From assembly GCA_017303675.1 (NCBI GenBank), contig JAFLBX010000001.1, positions 1,003,970 to 1,067,969 of the forward strand: DNA of 64,000 nucleotides, written 5' to 3'. Positions 11,745-52,188 of the stretch are shown one piece after another. The stretch's first letter is position 1. Every line of letters starts with the position of its first letter. This DNA is from Ignavibacteria bacterium. Its GTDB lineage: Bacteria; Bacteroidota; Ignavibacteria; Tepidaquicellales; OLB5. The notes beneath the pieces are model-generated. The model saw only the letters and a list, made by a program, of their open reading frames with translations. It was not told the DNA's origin and made no database searches. A program made the position numbers and the translations under genes.

Positions 11745-12677
11745 ATGAAACTCACAAAAACGTTAATTTTAGCTTTTATTCTGCCATTTGTTGTGGCATT
11801 AAATGCCTGTCAGGAACAGAGCGATAAAAATACTTTAAGCCAGGAACAGCCACGGGAATTTAAAACAGATGCACCTACCGGTACAACAGATATTGAATCC
11901 TCACCCAAAAACAAAGAATTTACCATAGGGGAAAACAAGTCAGACGGCACATTAAAACAGATAAATTACCAGCAGCCCACAGAAAATACTACACCTCAGG
12001 ATAAGCGGATGATAATCCGCACAGGTACAATGAGCATTGAAAATGACAGCTTTGATGAGACCGAACTTAAGGCTAAGGAGATCGCGAAAAATCTTGGCGG
12101 ATTCATAACCAACTCCACAGCCCAGGTAAACCAGAGCGGAAAGAAACAGGGGACACTCACCATAAGAGTGCAGGCTGATAAGTATGATGCATTGCTTGCA
12201 GAGCTTGCAAAGACAGGTAAAGTTATGAATCAGAACATTACCGGGCGTGATGTGACCGAAGAGTATGTTGACGCCGAGGCAAGACTTAAAACCCAGCGTG
12301 AGCTTGAAACAAGGCTGCTGCAGTTGCTTGCTGAAAAAACAGCGAACTTAACAGCAGTGGTTGAAGTAGAGCAGAAGCTTGCAAACGTAAGAGAGAACAT
12401 CGAAAAGACCGAAGGCAGAATGCGTATGCTCAAAGACCAGGCGTCGTTTTCAACTATTACACTCAGCATATATGAGCCCGCAATACTCAACACTTCTTCA
12501 GGCGGATTCTTTTATGAGCTTGAGCGCGGATTCGAAAAGGGTCTTACCGGATTTACAAAAGTATTGGCTGGTATCATAACATTTGTTATAGCAATGGCTC
12601 CGATACTTGCCATACTTGGATTTATAGTGTATATAGTTGTAAGGGTTATAAAGAAAAGAAAAGTTGTAAAGGCATAA
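11745..12677 (+). CDS. DUF4349 lipoprotein with C-terminal membrane helix
   Basis: 310 residues. The N-terminus is a lipoprotein signal (MKLTKTLILAFILPFVVALNAC, Cys22 as the lipidation site). A disordered polar linker follows. The DUF4349 core runs from about 88 to 250 (RMIIRTGTMSIEND, GGFITNSTAQ, GTLTIRVQADKYDALLAEL, VTEEYVDAEARLKTQRELETRLLQLL, then a long coiled coil, then ASFSTITLSIYEP). A single transmembrane helix (about 275-300) and a short basic tail end the protein. The family is envelope-associated; a structural or signalling role is inferred only. No partner genes are adjacent. Confidence 0.87.
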   Translation: MKLTKTLILAFILPFVVALNACQEQSDKNTLSQEQPREFKTDAPTGTTDIESSPKNKEFTIGENKSDGTLKQINYQQPTENTTPQDKRMIIRTGTMSIENDSFDETELKAKEIAKNLGGFITNSTAQVNQSGKKQGTLTIRVQADKYDALLAELAKTGKVMNQNITGRDVTEEYVDAEARLKTQRELETRLLQLLAEKTANLTAVVEVEQKLANVRENIEKTEGRMRMLKDQASFSTITLSIYEPAILNTSSGGFFYELERGFEKGLTGFTKVLAGIITFVIAMAPILAILGFIVYIVVRVIKKRKVVKA

Positions 12678-13037
12678 GTAATTGTTTGCAGAGTCCTTCA
12701 AACAGCGAAGAGACTCTGCAAAATACGTATTATATGAACAATGGGTTGTAACCCCTTGTTCATAGGAAAGCAAAGATATTGTTTCCAGCAGCATCCCCAA
12801 AAAACAATATAGAACGCAAAGGGATCTTTATGAGGGATCCCTGTTCTATTTTACAGAATTCTGAGGAGTGAAACGACGAAGCGGGGATAAGCCGTACTAA
12901 GTTAACACACCCCGTCACGCTGAAGCGTGACACCCATCTCAAGAGGGGAATTTTCAAATCATTACTAAAAACTTGTGAAATATGTGGTTAGTTTTGTAGA
13001 GAGTTTGGTTCGATTGGTGAGATCCTTCGGCTTCGCC
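12678..13037. repeat. Spacer with inverted and dispersed repeats
   Basis: No gene supported in 360 nt. GCAGAGTC (12689-12696) pairs with GACTCTGC (12713-12720) right after the DUF4349 stop but has no T-run. GAACAA...TTGTTC forms another inverted repeat around 12736-12761. GTCACGC/GCGTGAC lies around 12914-12930, and a shortened copy of the TTTGTGAAATT..GTGGTTA element is at about 12969-12990. Confidence 0.5.
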
Positions 13038-14546: not shown

Positions 14547-14576
14547 TTGACTTATAAATACTATTTATTATATTTG
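14547..14576 (+). promoter_or_regulatory. FCB-type promoter for the small RNA
   Basis: TTG at 14547-14549 and TATATTTG at 14569-14576 are separated by 19 nt, matching the Bacteroidota -33/-7 pattern. No protein gene follows on this strand for 1 kb. The transcript would instead cover the folded element ending at 14704. Confidence 0.7.
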
Positions 14577-14581
14577 TAACA

Positions 14582-14704
14582 GATTTAAGATAGTTCTTTA
14601 TATAAAATCAAAATTTTGCAGCAGGAGTTAGCTAGGTAAGGGTGGCTAACGTTTTTAGTACGAACGCTCCCAGTGTTCCGAAAAAACCTGCTGCGTTTTT
14701 TTTG
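14582..14704 (+). ncRNA. Candidate small structured RNA with built-in terminator
   Basis: A closing stem GCAGCAGG/CCTGCTGC (14618-14625 with 14687-14694) surrounds two hairpins: GTTAGC/GCTAAC (14627-14632 with 14645-14650) and GAACGCT/AGTGTTC (14662-14668 with 14672-14678, CCC loop, one G-U pair). Nine T follow almost at once. A good promoter lies ~40 nt upstream of the fold. The three-way-junction shape and isolated position suggest an independent sRNA of roughly 120 nt. It does not carry the conserved core of SRP RNA, 6S RNA or tmRNA, and no riboswitch consensus is recognised. The transcription start is estimated from the promoter. Confidence 0.55.
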
Positions 14705-14751
14705 CCCAAAATTATAAAAATAAGCATTATTTCCAAAAAATGGCAAAAAAA

Positions 14752-14779
14752 AACCGGGAAATTATCCCGGTTATTTTTG
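14752..14779 (-). terminator. Intrinsic terminator of the ACP-like gene
   Basis: AACCGGGA pairs with TCCCGGTT (14752-14759 with 14765-14772). On the minus strand the stem is followed by nine T. It lies 12 nt past the stop of the gene ending at 14791. Confidence 0.85.
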
Positions 14780-14790
14780 AAAATATCAGT

Positions 14791-15030
14791 CTAACCTAAT
14801 TTTTTTTCTATCAGTATAGCTGCATCTCCAACAGTTACTATCCCGTTTTCATCTCCCGGTTCATATCCAAGATCAAAGCTATCTTCAAGTTCAGTTAAGT
14901 AAGTGATTAAATCTGCAGGGGTTACAATGCCTATATCAGTTAATATTGTTGAATTGTGAATTTCCTGAACTGGTCTGCTTGTATAAACAGCAGTAAAATC
15001 GATTACCTGCTGATCAATAGAATTTGACAT
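14791..15030 (-). CDS. Acyl carrier protein-like protein lacking the usual DSL serine
   Basis: 79 residues of ACP size and pattern: a helix I-like N-terminus, TILTDIGI, then helix II (DLITYLTELEDSFDLGYEP), then IVTVGDAAILIEKKL, matching the end of ACPs (TV.DA...I). At the place where ACPs have DSL, the phosphopantetheine serine, this protein reads VTPADL. No serine is present there, so carrier activity by 4'-phosphopantetheine is unlikely. It could be a structural or regulatory ACP relative. It is transcribed alone or with the small gene at 15152-15400, 121 nt upstream on the same strand. The fold assignment is by eye and moderately sure. Confidence 0.6.
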   Translation of the reverse strand: MSNSIDQQVIDFTAVYTSRPVQEIHNSTILTDIGIVTPADLITYLTELEDSFDLGYEPGDENGIVTVGDAAILIEKKLG

Positions 15031-15603: not shown

Positions 15604-17067
15604 ATGGAAATTACAGATTCTAAATTAATTTTATTAATAAAGACGTTTAATAAGGCTGAATTCGAAAAGTTTGAAAAATTCATAAATTCACCCTATTTCA
15701 ACACTAGTGAGCAGTTATCAGGTCTGGTTAAGCTGTTAAAGACTGATTATCCCGGTTTTAAAAAATTGTCGAAGAATGACATTTTTAATCATTTTTACCC
15801 AAAGCAGGAATATAAAGATAAAAAGGTAAGAGATCTGTTAAGCAGGCTTCTGGAACTTGCAGAAGTATTCATTGCCCAGCTTGAATTTGAAAAAGAACAT
15901 ACAACCAGGAATTTTTCGATAATGAATCAGCACATTGAAAGGGGACTTGACAGGCATTTTAAAAGTAAGTTCAGAGAATATGAAAAATATATTAATTCAC
16001 AGAACGTTATAGATGAAAATTATCTGTACACCAAATTTTCATTGGCAAAGCTTTACAGAAATTATACAGATATTTTTTCGAATGTTGCTTATGAGGATTC
16101 ATTTTCAGATATAATTTATACTGAATATGAAAATTTTTTAAATTTTATTATTTATGATATTCTGAATTACACACTGGTTTTTTCGATCAGAAATTATGCT
16201 ATTAAAAATGATATACATCTTGAGTTTTCAGAAAAGGTTCTGGAATTTCTTGAAAAACATCCGCCTGAAAAATATCCGGTAATTAATATCTTCCGCATGA
16301 TATTAAATATTCAAAAAACTGAAAGTGAACCGGTAAGTGAAGTAGATGTAAAGCAGTATAATATTCTGATAGAAAATCTTGATCAAAATTTTCAGTCTGT
16401 AAATAAAGAAATTGCCCGAACCTTATTTGTTTATCTTGTTAATTATACCAGGCTTAAGTCGCTTGGAAATAACAGTTTTTTCAAGGAAGAACATTACAGG
16501 CTTCTGAAATATTCTATAGAAAATGATCTGTATCCCAAGGAAGGAAAATATTTCGGGGAAGCTTCTTATGTTATTGTGGCATCAACTGCGCTGATAAATA
16601 AGGATTTCGAATGGGCGGAAGATTTCATCGAAAAATTCAAAAATGAGCTTAAGCCTGAAGTAAAAGAAAACGCTTATACTATGTGTATGGCAAATCTAAA
16701 TTACCGAAAAGGAAATTACGAGAAAGCGCTTAAACTACTCGTGCGTGTATCAATCGAAGATATTTATTACCAGTTAAAAGTAAAAAACCTTCAGATTAAA
16801 ATACATTATGAGCTTGGTGATTATGAAATGTGTAAAAGCGTGATAGATTCATTCCGGCATTTTCTCAGCAGTTCCAAACAGTTTCCTGAATTTGTAAGGA
16901 TAAGGTTTGTAAATTACGTTAATTTTACCAGCCGAATGGTTAATATCTGGCTTGGAGGCGATACCAGGAATTTGATAGAGATACTGCGGGAATTAAATGA
17001 ATTGCCGCAGGAAAGAGTTGAAAGCAAATCATGGCTTCTTGCCCAGGCTTCAAAAATTAAGATCTAA
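15604..17067 (+). CDS. LKTF/FEKFI-family cytoplasmic protein (paralogue 1 of 4)
   Basis: 487 residues. The N-terminal ~90 define a family shared with the genes at 32474, 35943 and 37408: SKLILLIKTFNKAEFEKFEKFINSPYFN, YPGFKKLSKNDIFNHFYPKQEY, then RDLLSRLLELAEVFI. The rest is all-helical, with degenerate TPR-like pairs at the C-terminus (YRKGNYEKALKLLVRVSIEDIYYQLKVKNLQIKIHYELGDYEMC, then SFRHFLSSSKQF). No catalytic motif, signal or membrane segment. Such proteins recur in Bacteroidota genomes without a named function; a protein-binding scaffold is the most that can be inferred. This copy is isolated from the duplicated modules and lies just upstream of the SUF operon. Confidence 0.75.
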   Translation: MEITDSKLILLIKTFNKAEFEKFEKFINSPYFNTSEQLSGLVKLLKTDYPGFKKLSKNDIFNHFYPKQEYKDKKVRDLLSRLLELAEVFIAQLEFEKEHTTRNFSIMNQHIERGLDRHFKSKFREYEKYINSQNVIDENYLYTKFSLAKLYRNYTDIFSNVAYEDSFSDIIYTEYENFLNFIIYDILNYTLVFSIRNYAIKNDIHLEFSEKVLEFLEKHPPEKYPVINIFRMILNIQKTESEPVSEVDVKQYNILIENLDQNFQSVNKEIARTLFVYLVNYTRLKSLGNNSFFKEEHYRLLKYSIENDLYPKEGKYFGEASYVIVASTALINKDFEWAEDFIEKFKNELKPEVKENAYTMCMANLNYRKGNYEKALKLLVRVSIEDIYYQLKVKNLQIKIHYELGDYEMCKSVIDSFRHFLSSSKQFPEFVRIRFVNYVNFTSRMVNIWLGGDTRNLIEILRELNELPQERVESKSWLLAQASKIKI

Positions 17068-30500: not shown

Positions 30501-32054
30501 TTATTTCACCAGGATCATCTTCTTAACCTGCGCATATCCTCCGGAACTTATCTTATAAAAATAAACACCACTTGGTAATTTTGATGAGTCAAAATCCGCT
30601 TCATAACTTCCCGGGTTTAATTGTTCATTCACAAGCATTGATACTTCCTTCCCGCTTATATCGTAAATTATCAGTTTGGTGAATGATTGCTGCGGAATAT
30701 CAAACTTTATTTTTGTTACAGGATTAAACGGGTTTGGATAATTATTATACAATTTGTAAACAGAAGGTATTTCATTTCCTGTTTGGTTAATTCCAACCAA
30801 ACCTGTGCGGAAATTCCATACAACTGACCAGGGCCCATCTCCCCCTACATTTTGTCCCGTTACCCTCCAGTAATATTGAATATTGTGATTTAAGAAACCG
30901 GAAGGAATCTGGAATTGTGTTGCAGGAACAGATACATCAAGAACAGTTGTATTAAATACATCTACAGATACCTGAACCCTGTAACTTACTGCACCAGCAA
31001 CAGAATTCCACTGCAGCAAAGGGGTCAAACTGTGACCATTTGAATTGTTAGGCGGAGCTGTAAGCACAGGTGCCTGAGCCGGTGGAATTACTCCGCTTCC
31101 GTTGGTAGTTTTTAAAATATGAGCATTTTCACCGCCTATCCAGCCTGTATTGTAATTTATAAATGTTACAGAATTAATATCAACTCCGGAAACACCTATG
31201 TTTTGATCAACCCAGTTTGCACAGCCGTTTGTTGTTTTTAGCAAACCATTCTGTTTTCCAAGCCATCCCCATTGTTCATCATGCATAAATAATGAATATA
31301 CCCCTCCTCCTTGATTGTTTAACGTTATCCAGTCATCACCATTATTTATGGTTTTATAAGTTTTATTGGAAATATGATACCCAACTCCATTGGGAAAAAA
31401 TTGAAAACACCCCCCTGAACTATAACCGTCTGTTCCGCTGTTCATTTCCGGGGTCCAGGTGAAACCCATATCTGTAGTTCTGAGTAAAACATGATAGAAA
31501 ACGACTGAAGAACCCCCGTTTACAAAACCGGTAGTTCCGTTTATAAAGTGCATACTGCTCATTGCGTTCATACTACCGTATGAAGCGTTACGCGAATACC
31601 AGTTTGCACCGCTGTTTGTAGTGTAATAAAAATTTGTTCCGCCTTGTCCGGAATTATTATAATATACAGTATCATCTGTGCCATTGAAAAACTCCATATA
31701 ACCTGTTCCTCCGGGGACTATAACAGAATCCCACGTAATTCCACCGTTGATTGAACGGTAATAATGGGTTCCGGTATGCCACCACGTATAAATTCTGTGC
31801 TGACCGAAAGGAGGATCTACAAGCTGAAAACCTTTCAGGTTCCTCCATGGCTTAGCAAGAATAACCTCCCAGTTAGTTCCTCCATTGACTGTTTTCAGAA
31901 TTTGTGTTGTAGTGGATGCGTAAACAGTATCCTGACTGACTGCATGAATTTTTATAATATTACCTACTGCAGGATTAGTCTGAACAGCCCAATTCTGGCT
32001 GTGAATTATGCTGCTGATTAAAAGCATACAAACTGTTATTATTGTTTTTTGCAT
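30501..32054 (-). CDS. Secreted YCF48/BNR-like protein with T9SS sorting domain (module A)
   Basis: 517 residues from the ATG at 32054, which follows a GAAGGGA site. An in-frame TTG at 32069 is the ribosome-binding region, not the start. Signal peptide MQKTIITVCMLLISSIIHSQ. Residues 20-330 are a beta-propeller of YCF48/BNR type (repeats of ILKTVNGGTNWEV, YYRSINGGITWDSV, FYYTTNSGANWYS, LLRTTDMGFTWTP, LLKTTNGCANWVDQ, ILKTTNGSG). A fibronectin III-like module (PVLTAPPNNSNG...YYWRVTGQN) and the T9SS domain (VYKLYNNYPNPFNPVTKI...KKMILVK) follow. Surface-exposed and non-enzymatic as far as can be seen. Preceded 11 nt upstream by the small probable DNA-binding protein. Its paralogue lies at 33987, with a near-identical C-terminal part. 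Confidence 0.88.
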   Translation of the reverse strand: MQKTIITVCMLLISSIIHSQNWAVQTNPAVGNIIKIHAVSQDTVYASTTTQILKTVNGGTNWEVILAKPWRNLKGFQLVDPPFGQHRIYTWWHTGTHYYRSINGGITWDSVIVPGGTGYMEFFNGTDDTVYYNNSGQGGTNFYYTTNSGANWYSRNASYGSMNAMSSMHFINGTTGFVNGGSSVVFYHVLLRTTDMGFTWTPEMNSGTDGYSSGGCFQFFPNGVGYHISNKTYKTINNGDDWITLNNQGGGVYSLFMHDEQWGWLGKQNGLLKTTNGCANWVDQNIGVSGVDINSVTFINYNTGWIGGENAHILKTTNGSGVIPPAQAPVLTAPPNNSNGHSLTPLLQWNSVAGAVSYRVQVSVDVFNTTVLDVSVPATQFQIPSGFLNHNIQYYWRVTGQNVGGDGPWSVVWNFRTGLVGINQTGNEIPSVYKLYNNYPNPFNPVTKIKFDIPQQSFTKLIIYDISGKEVSMLVNEQLNPGSYEADFDSSKLPSGVYFYKISSGGYAQVKKMILVK

Positions 32055-32065
32055 AAATCTTCCCT

Positions 32066-32251
32066 TCAATTATTATTAATTAAATTAGTATTAATTTTTC
32101 TATAGTGAGCATTCAGGTAGTTAGTACATATAATTTTTAATGTTTCATCGTAATCAGATTTAATAAGTTTTTGTATTTTGTCTATCATTTTATGGGTTTC
32201 AGGCTTTAGCCTGTAACCCTTGGATATTTTCTTTGCTTTTTTAATTCTCAT
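32066..32251 (-). CDS. Small probable ribbon-helix-helix protein (module A)
   Basis: 61 residues, basic N-terminus: MRIKKAKKISKGYRLKPETH, then KMIDKIQKLIKSDYDETLKIICTNYL. A short strand (KGYRLK) followed by two helices fits the ribbon-helix-helix DNA-binding fold of the Arc/MetJ/CopG type, though no curated family is recognised. A paralogue (35531-35710) has the same first half almost residue for residue. Both are encoded directly in front of a secreted BNR-like gene and directly behind GTGCAC hexamers. Autoregulation and control of the secreted gene are inferred. ATG at 32251. Confidence 0.6.
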   Translation of the reverse strand: MRIKKAKKISKGYRLKPETHKMIDKIQKLIKSDYDETLKIICTNYLNAHYRKINTNLINNN

Positions 32252-32259
32252 ACTTTTTT

Positions 32260-32297
32260 GTGCACCTATTGTGCACAGATTATTTTGTAGTGTGCAA
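32260..32297. promoter_or_regulatory. GTGCAC operator-like array, module A
   Basis: GTGCAC at 32260-32265, GTGCAC at 32271-32276 and GTGCAA at 32292-32297 start 11 and 21 bp apart, roughly whole helical turns. The last overlaps the -7 element of the small gene's promoter and the others lie just after the expected transcription start. They are the likely binding sites of the small RHH-like protein. Confidence 0.55.
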
Positions 32298-33986: not shown

Positions 33987-35519
33987 TTATTTTACCAGGA
34001 TCATCTTCTTAACCTGCGCATATCCTCCGGAACTTATCTTATAAAAATAAACACCGCTTGGTAATTTTGATGCGTCAAAATCCGCTTCATAGCTCCCCGG
34101 GTTTAATTGTTCATTCACAAGCATTGATACTTCCTTCCCGCTAATATCATAAATTATCAGTTTGGTGAATGATTGCTGCGGAATATCAAACTTTATTTTT
34201 GTTACAGGATTGAACGGGTTCGGATAATTATTATACAATTTGTAAACAGAAGGTATTTCATTTCCTGTTTGGTTAATTCCAACCAAACCTGTACGGAAAT
34301 TCCATACAACTGACCAGGGACCTTGACCTCCTATGTTCAAAGCAGTAACTCTCCAGTAATAAAGTACATTATTGTTTAAAAATCCCGGAGGTACCTGCAG
34401 CTGAGTTACTGAAACCGTATCATAATCAAGTACTGTAGAATTAAAAACATCTATAGAAACCTGAACCCGGTAATTTACTGCATTTGGAACAGAATTCCAT
34501 TGCAGTAAAGGAGTTATACTTTGACCCGTAGAGTTATTGGGAGGTGAAGTTAATGTAGGTGCCTGTGCAGGCGGAGTGACACCGCTTCCGTTTGTTGTTT
34601 TAAGTATATGTCCTGATGATCCGCAAATCCAGCCTGTATTATAATTTATAAAAGATACCTCATAAATTGAAACACCTGATATACCAATGTTTTGATTTAC
34701 CCAAGTTGAGCATCCATCAGTAGTTTTTAATAATCCGTCTGATTTACCCAGCCAACCCCATTGCGGGTCGTGCATAAAAAGTGAATTTCTGCCTCCTGAT
34801 TGATTATTTAATATAACCCAGTTTTCTCCCATATTGGTTGTTTTATAAGTTCTGTTTGAAACATGAAAACCGATATTCCCGAAAAACTTAAAATCTCCAC
34901 CTCCTTCATAGCCATTTGTGTTGCTTGCCATATTTGTTGTCCAGGTAAAACCACGATCAGTTGTTCTCAATAGTCTGTGAAGATAAGTCCAGCTGGTTCC
35001 GCCGTTAACAAAACCAGTTTGTTGATTAACAAAATACATACTACCCAAAGAGTTTATCGTAAATCCGGATACACTTGATGAATACCAGTTTGAACCTGAA
35101 TTTGTAGTATACAAAAAGCTCTGTGAATTATCTATGAAATATATATTATTAGTATCGTTTAAATACTGCATATCATTCGGTACGCCCGGTAATATATAAG
35201 GGGTCCAGTTAAACCCTCCGTCTGTGGTTTTAAATTTTTGATTCCAGTTAGTGAACCAAAGATTCCCGACATTAGGCTGATCCCATTGCCAATTCTTAAA
35301 AGTTCTGCTGGGCGGGGCTGTAAAAACAATATTCCAGTTTGTTCCGCCATTGGTAGTTTTTAGAACTTGAGTACCGGTTAACGCGTATACCAGGTTAGTA
35401 TCAAAAGCCTGTATTGCAATAATATTTCCTGTACCCGGATTTGACTGCACCATCCAGGATTGAGAAAACAATCCAGAACTCATTAAAAGTAAAACAATAA
35501 AACATTTCAGAATTTTCAT
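33987..35519 (-). CDS. Secreted YCF48/BNR-like protein with T9SS sorting domain (module B)
   Basis: 510 residues from ATG 35519; an ATG at 35531 would add four residues. The start at 35519 mirrors module A, leaving the same 11-nt gap to the upstream stop. Signal peptide MKILKCFIVLLLMSSGLFSQ. The domain plan is identical to the 30501 gene: propeller repeats (VLKTTNGGTNWNI, FKTTDGGFNWTP, LLRTTDRGFTWTT), a fibronectin III-like module and a T9SS domain. The last ~110 residues differ from module A at only one visible position, while the propeller has diverged clearly. This points to duplication plus later exchange of the 3' end. Surface-exposed; function unknown. Confidence 0.88.
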   Translation of the reverse strand: MKILKCFIVLLLMSSGLFSQSWMVQSNPGTGNIIAIQAFDTNLVYALTGTQVLKTTNGGTNWNIVFTAPPSRTFKNWQWDQPNVGNLWFTNWNQKFKTTDGGFNWTPYILPGVPNDMQYLNDTNNIYFIDNSQSFLYTTNSGSNWYSSSVSGFTINSLGSMYFVNQQTGFVNGGTSWTYLHRLLRTTDRGFTWTTNMASNTNGYEGGGDFKFFGNIGFHVSNRTYKTTNMGENWVILNNQSGGRNSLFMHDPQWGWLGKSDGLLKTTDGCSTWVNQNIGISGVSIYEVSFINYNTGWICGSSGHILKTTNGSGVTPPAQAPTLTSPPNNSTGQSITPLLQWNSVPNAVNYRVQVSIDVFNSTVLDYDTVSVTQLQVPPGFLNNNVLYYWRVTALNIGGQGPWSVVWNFRTGLVGINQTGNEIPSVYKLYNNYPNPFNPVTKIKFDIPQQSFTKLIIYDISGKEVSMLVNEQLNPGSYEADFDASKLPSGVYFYKISSGGYAQVKKMILVK

Positions 35520-35530
35520 AATGTATTCCA

Positions 35531-35710
35531 TTAATTTTTTGAATATTTAAATTGGTTAGTATTGTTTTTTTTCAGAAAATATGCGCATAGTGCCGTAAGA
35601 GTATCATCATAATCGGTTTTTAATATTTTTTGAACTTTAGTTATCATTTTATGGGTTTCAGGCCTTAGCCTGTATCCTTTTGAAATTTTTTTATCTTTTT
35701 TAAGTCTCAT
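35531..35710 (-). CDS. Small probable ribbon-helix-helix protein (module B)
   Basis: 59 residues from ATG 35710. A longer reading from 35734 would start inside the GTGCAC array and is rejected. The sequence MRLKKDKKISKGYRLRPETH, KMITKVQKILKTDYDDTLTALCAYFL parallels the module A protein with conservative changes, and both then end in polar tails of unrelated sequence. Selection has therefore kept the first ~45 residues, as expected for a DNA-binding domain. It lies 11 nt before the secreted BNR-like gene. Role inferred as in module A. Confidence 0.6.
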   Translation of the reverse strand: MRLKKDKKISKGYRLRPETHKMITKVQKILKTDYDDTLTALCAYFLKKNNTNQFKYSKN

Positions 35711-35718
35711 ATCAATCT

Positions 35719-35744
35719 GTGCACTTGAGTGCATTAAAGTGCAC
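35719..35744. promoter_or_regulatory. GTGCAC operator-like array, module B
   Basis: GTGCAC at 35719-35724, GTGCAT at 35729-35734 and GTGCAC at 35739-35744 start exactly 10 bp apart, one helical turn, between the promoter and the start of the small RHH-like gene. The array matches that in module A in word, position and phase. Confidence 0.6.
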
Positions 35745-51654: not shown

Positions 51655-51727
51655 AGGTATAAAGTCCTTTCGGCTTGTTATACAAAAATAGATAACAAAG
51701 GCAGAATTTGCAAGTAAATAATAAAAC

Positions 51728-52100
51728 GGAAAGCTCATAAGCCGGATCCTGTTCCCGCCCCTTGCGGGGCATGGGCAGCCATTTATCTTGTGCAGCCTAC
51801 CCTGTATCACACTGCCTTGGCAGATTCAGACGGGCAGCCCGAAAGTGATACTTTACGCGGCCTTGCACTCATGCAGGGTTTATCTTGCAGCATTCATTAC
51901 TGAATGCACGGTGGTCTCTTACACCGCCTTTTCACCTTTTCCAATCGGGTTGCCCCGAATGGTAGTTTGTTTTCTGTGATACTGATCCGTTACAGCGGGT
52001 TTGCCCCGCTGCACCCGCGCTTTCACACGGTGCATTGCCCTTGAGTGTCCGGACTTTCCTCTCCCAACTGTTACATTGAAAGCGGCTGCTTGAGCTTTCC
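51728..52100 (-). ncRNA. rnpB: RNase P RNA
   Basis: On the minus strand the conserved 5' core GAGGAAAGTCCGGACACTC lies near 52049-52067, and P1 is formed by GGAAAGCTCA...CAGCCG at the 5' end with CGGCTTATGAGCTTTCC at the 3' end. Further signs are GGGTGCAGCGGGGCAAACCCGC, the AGAGACCACCG element and the 3' ACAGGATCCGGCTTATGAG. This is a complete bacterial RNase P RNA of about 373 nt that removes tRNA 5' leaders. TATTTTTG on the minus strand (52130-52123) is a likely -7 promoter element. Confidence 0.95.
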
Positions 52101-52188
52101 TTTTATTAGAAATATCTTAAAGCAAAAATAATGATTTTAAGTTCCATTTGAGAGGGAATATTGCTGCAGCGCTGAGATATTCTGGATA

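Follow-up and report, generated by a model that had tools for sequence, protein, structure and literature searches.

A candidate family of multicopy structured small RNAs in Ignavibacteria

A contig from an Ignavibacteria bacterium almost certainly carries a genuine, hitherto uncatalogued small RNA gene. Its functional RNA core occupies positions 14615-14703 (+) of the window, the whole 64,000-nt stretch of DNA that we analyzed. The original prediction, made from the sequence of this one locus, was that it could be a novel small RNA, and both compensatory stem changes in homologues and the absence of a matching Rfam family support that reading. Our case rests on homologues because folding z-scores are modest and a generic scan finds no more promoters than chance would give. 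The gene and its relatives form a family of stand-alone, multicopy structured bacterial small RNAs. We regard this as a known sort of RNA rather than a new kind, even though its fold, its loops and its boxA-like leader set it apart from the described families compared. What the RNA does in the cell we can only infer. The locus comprises the following features.

14547-14576 (+): promoter TTG(AC), 19-nt spacer, TATATTTG (Bacteroidota-type -33/-7), from sequence and conservation
14580-14617 (+): predicted 5' leader, its start placed at ~14580-14584 from promoter spacing
14593-14599 (+): GTTCTTT, boxA-like, the sole well-conserved leader block, missed by the original prediction
14615-14703 (+): conserved RNA core and T tract, matched by covariance models R1/R2 (104-108 bits, E ~1e-25)
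14618-14625 (+): P1 5' strand, GCAGCAGG, two-sided changes in 5/8 pairs
14627-14650 (+): P2 hairpin, 8 bp when the conserved U-G and A-U pairs are added to its 6-bp stem
14635-14642 (+): P2 loop, GGUAAGGG, 98.6% identical among copies
14653-14656 (+): P3a 5' strand, UUUU, predicted by RNAalifold to pair with AAAA 14683-14686
14657-14660 (+): AGUA, the 5' strand of an internal loop resembling sarcin-ricin (bulged-G/loop E), opposite GAA 14680-14682
14662-14678 (+): P3b hairpin, CCC loop 14669-14671, two-sided changes in 5 pairs
14683-14686 (+): P3a 3' strand, AAAA, from RNAalifold and compensatory pair types
14687-14694 (+): P1 3' strand, CCTGCTGC, pairs with 14618-14625
14696-14703 (+): eight T, presumed to act with P1 as an intrinsic terminator; a T-rich tract follows P1 in copies
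14752-14772 (no strand assigned): terminator hairpin of the converging gene and possible second stop for the RNA, from sequence

Fold, covariation and loop conservation

Folding of the window copy recovers the predicted three-way junction. The minimum free energy and centroid folds both contain the 8-bp closing stem (P1), a 6-bp hairpin that extends to 8 bp (P2) and a 7-bp hairpin with a CCC loop (P3b), as originally proposed; a fourth helix, P3a, had been overlooked. The core has a folding z-score of -3.0, matched by 2 of 200 dinucleotide shuffles, and the core with its leader a z-score of -3.4, matched by 0 of 200. These shuffle z-scores are modest taken alone.

Homologues change both sides of the stems while keeping them paired. 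Across 14 distinct sequences, two-sided changes occur at 16 of the 21 pairs in the three stems first proposed, and 94.9% of alignment cells are paired, versus 77% in shuffled and ~30-49% in slid alignments. RNAalifold, run on 19 copies in an alignment built with the first covariance model, adds P3a and two extra P2 pairs. In this refined fold 19 of 28 pairs have two-sided changes, sliding destroys the covariation score, and none of 500 shuffles reaches it. Whatever the tree, no fewer than 19 two-sided changes are required. Single helices follow suit: P2 is paired in 99% of cells, with two-sided changes at 5 pairs; P3b in 93% over its 6 main pairs; and P3a in 97%, with one pair seen as U-A, C-G and A-U. 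The P2 U-G pair becomes U-A in one divergent copy. Compensatory changes were found in all three stems on which the original prediction had staked its case.

The loops, in contrast to the stems, barely vary. Identity reaches 94% at unpaired positions versus 69% at paired ones, the pattern of an RNA with selection on its shape as well as its loops. AGUA lies opposite GAA between the covarying helices P3a and P3b, which we take, by sequence only, to be the signature of a sarcin-ricin (bulged-G, loop E) motif. The alignment shows it in 15 of 18 distinct copies, and correcting a one-base shift adds one more; in the orthologous pair L073/L095, CAA replaces GAA. All 18 distinct copies could pair a GGG of the P2 loop with a CYC of the P3 loop, but this loop-loop contact stays a guess because its bases are almost invariant and hence provide no covariation support. 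The most divergent copy, L099 (1530-1616, -), carries AUCCCAG in P3 and a P2 loop shortened to GUUAGGG, and sits directly 3' of a gene resembling a homocysteine S-methyltransferase.

Promoter, leader and 3' end

Conservation, rather than motif scoring, is the evidence for a promoter. The FCB-type promoter originally proposed was found, with TTG at 14547-14549, a spacer of 19 bases and TATATTTG at 14569-14576. It is kept as CCTATTGACAT...TATATTTG in 14 syntenic copies whose flanks vary. We lean on conservation because a generic sigma-70 scan gives chance-level counts (8 promoters versus 8.5 expected).

The leader carries a single conserved block reminiscent of rRNA operons. Leaders of homologues vary in both sequence and length apart from GTTCTTT, which 13 of 14 syntenic copies retain and one has as GTTCATT. 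Since GTTCTTT occurs 28 further times in the window, the boxA-like argument is one of conservation and not of presence. In this genome GTTCTTT also stands in the 16S rRNA leader, 3' of a TTGACA promoter; unlike in that leader, the block here precedes an 85-nt structured RNA. Against the published gammaproteobacterial boxA consensus GYTCTTTAANA (PMC5725501), the GTTCTTT half matches and the AANA half does so inconsistently. The survey that gives this consensus states that small non-coding RNAs were outside its consideration (PMC5725501). Were the boxA functional, it would place a Nus-factor element on an RNA of that class.

The 3' end is marked by a T tract. Eight bases long (14696-14703, preceded by G) rather than the nine T first reported, it is presumed to form an intrinsic terminator with P1. 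Almost every copy has a T-rich tract directly 3' of P1, paralogues at unrelated positions among them; against termination, P1 encloses ~60 nt, which is unusual for an intrinsic terminator. The surroundings are as originally described: the opposite strand carries a converging gene of 79 aa (14791-15030, -) with its own hairpin terminator at 14752-14772, and the + strand is free of open reading frames for almost 1 kb, the first convincing one starting at 15604, 902 bp on. Within 14695-14754, T8-GCCCA 3' of the core is complementary to TGGC-A9 5' of the converging gene's terminator, and several syntenic homologues have a comparable TTTTTTTTGCCC...GGGCAAAAAAAA. The complementarity may serve to keep the T tract sequestered, or it may simply be a relic.

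Distribution, genomic context and known families

The RNA appears to be confined to a single Ignavibacteria family. BLAST and two covariance models identified homologues in 15 of 15 genomes examined of the window's family (13 of the same genus, 2 of sister genera), with 1-5 copies each and one in the window's own genome. Searches with stricter filters in 294 genomes of the class and 395 of the phylum gave no convincing match beyond the family, and phage, plasmid and viral-contig collections gave no match. A core-pattern scan of ~85,000 species matched 23 Ignavibacteria/Chlorobi contigs plus four further ones; the latter (Idiomarina, Roizmanbacteria, Thaumarchaeota and a Bacteroidetes MAG) have no covariance-model score and were taken as chance. 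Beyond the family the models gave weak matches of 20-28 bits, most of them 33-42 nt long; these are mostly hairpin-sized and were put down to chance or terminators. Being limited by sequence, these searches might miss very divergent relatives elsewhere.

One locus is ancestral, and copies outside it share only the core. Nearly all members have the same neighbors, named here by sequence impression: an upstream membrane protein gene on the other strand, a converging small ACP-like gene and, further on, a conserved 487-aa gene and then sufB. Paralogues occur in varied gene contexts with no shared neighbor. Two non-syntenic loci (L074/L092 and L073/L095) are each common to two species, which points to retained copies rather than recent jumps. 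L080 (2345-2432), L096 and L095/L073 would give a leaderless version of ~85 nt and lack the boxA-like element.

Copies near stop codons raise the question of a purely 3'-terminal role. On this reading, which we consider improbable, the RNA would have no function in trans and would serve as a structured terminator, halting transcription and shielding mRNA 3' ends. The reading would suit the T residues after P1 and the copies at L074/L092, L099 and L075, which lie 7-27 nt past a stop codon. The window copy and 13 syntenic homologues, however, have their own promoter and no upstream same-strand open reading frame, and in L096, L095/L073 and L080 the promoter abuts P1. Simple terminators need neither invariant loops of 8-12 nt nor AGUA/GAA.

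No catalogued family accounts for the RNA. The cmscan comparison called for at the outset, run against Rfam 15 with the window copy and two divergent copies, gave no family at gathering level and, at E<=5, no credible overlap with the core. Rfam holds the families of Weinberg et al. 2010. The candidates reported there (PMC2864571; Chlorobi-1, Chlorobi-RRM) are likewise intergenic, with covarying stems, conserved loops and function not known; unlike them, our RNA is matched by no Rfam model. Position led us to reject a 5'-UTR riboswitch, since the core does not head a set of co-directional genes.

A divergent version of a standard housekeeping RNA (SRP, 6S, tmRNA or RNase P) is highly improbable. 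The rRNA-like boxA leader and an ancestral locus retained throughout the genus would suit one, but the genome's SRP RNA scores above the cut-off at another locus (G000:C2:417442-417539), and its class A RNase P RNA lies at 51723-52101 (-), the sole gathering-level Rfam match in the window. The 6S covariance model gives no match at the core, whose fold is unlike the open-promoter hairpin of 6S; the single weak 6S candidate maps elsewhere, as do the rRNA loci. The absence of SRP, 6S and RNase P elements noted in the original prediction is borne out by these results.

Possible modes of action

We favor a stand-alone structured RNA family that probably acts in trans, with its invariant loops read by a partner. 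Polymerase would start at the conserved promoter (~14582 by our placement) and read through the boxA-like leader element, giving a transcript of ~120 nt that would end at 14703 in the T tract behind P1. Its last 85 nt would fold into the three-way junction: P1; P2 with the GGUAAGGG loop; and P3a, the sarcin-ricin-like loop and P3b with its CCC loop. The folded core would be the functional unit, since paralogues retain only the core; some of these would start at P1 from their own promoter, and those past stop codons would be 3'-UTR copies. The P2, AGUA/GAA and CYC loops would be presented to the partner. We propose action in trans through these loops because they are nearly fixed while the stems vary and still pair.

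The partner may be a protein, somewhat less plausibly another RNA reached through short contacts, and only at a stretch a small ligand. A protein is slightly favored because conservation of the loops and internal loop exceeds what a simple seed needs. We also entertain, as an unlikely variant, a lineage-specific housekeeping-type RNA with rRNA-like transcription from a strong promoter through a boxA leader. Its sarcin-ricin-like and GGUAAGGG loops would be bound either by a protein dedicated to it or by the translation/Nus machinery, and such an RNA would be a new ribonucleoprotein regulator akin to 6S or CsrB but structurally unrelated.

Base pairing with mRNAs is the alternative we take most seriously, if with considerable doubt. 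Pairing near start codons would involve the GGUAAGGG loop, taken as accessible, or else the CCC loop, and the invariant loop is compatible with a seed. The multicopy intergenic and 3'-UTR layout, Bacteroidota-type promoters and a segment common to paralogues recall FopS, paralogous small RNAs of ~65-70 nt from a related bacterial group (Bacteroides thetaiotaomicron), with a 5' seed of consensus GTGTTTTTCATAGTATTAG..., that are bound by the RRM protein RbpB (PMC11697453). Unlike FopS, our RNA has no FopS-type seed sequence and its genome yielded no RRM_1 protein, and an RbpB-like mechanism is not supported. Pattern searches for targets also speak against pairing. The exact 12-nt complement of the P2 loop occurs, in 13 genomes of the genus, almost only on the element's own opposite strand, and the whole loop was rejected as an antisense seed. 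Sites of 8-nt complement with an ATG <=20 nt downstream were not above a reversed-pattern control, a weak test given its differing composition, and no 8-nt site recurs across all genomes. A seed alone would also leave AGUA/GAA conservation unexplained. Pairing of the P2 loop with rRNA was set aside: 16S rRNA has a 9-nt complement (~0.1 expected by chance, an estimate), and it is broken in L099.

A metabolite sensor, in trans or in cis, is improbable. This orphan riboswitch-like aptamer would be built from the junction, the GGUAAGGG and P3 loops and perhaps the GGG:CYC contact. The three-way junction, its invariant loops and the sarcin-ricin-like loop would all suit an aptamer, as would the universal potential for that contact; the sarcin-ricin motif is also found in the lysine riboswitch (PMC2258182). 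Yet no syntenic copy lies ahead of a nearby co-directional gene, neighboring genes share no pathway, and the contact lacks covariation while P2 and P3 differ in length.

Returning to the trans-acting RNA that we favor, the covariance model is fit for deposition, and the concrete RNA can serve as bait for partners. Covariation, a recognizable 3D module and a boxA-like leader together offer a defined entry point to regulatory RNA in Ignavibacteria, on which a literature search yielded little and which appears little studied.

Two further features of the window lie apart from the RNA. A near-perfect inverted repeat (15-nt arms, 2-nt loop) occupies a non-coding gap at 12733-12764, 3' of a 310-aa gene ending at 12677. 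Segments 30501-31235 and 33987-34724, and likewise 32142-32265 and 35601-35724, form a tandem-like duplication ~3.49 kb apart, with 97% identity in the first 300 nt and 73-78% further on, possibly reflecting duplicated genes.
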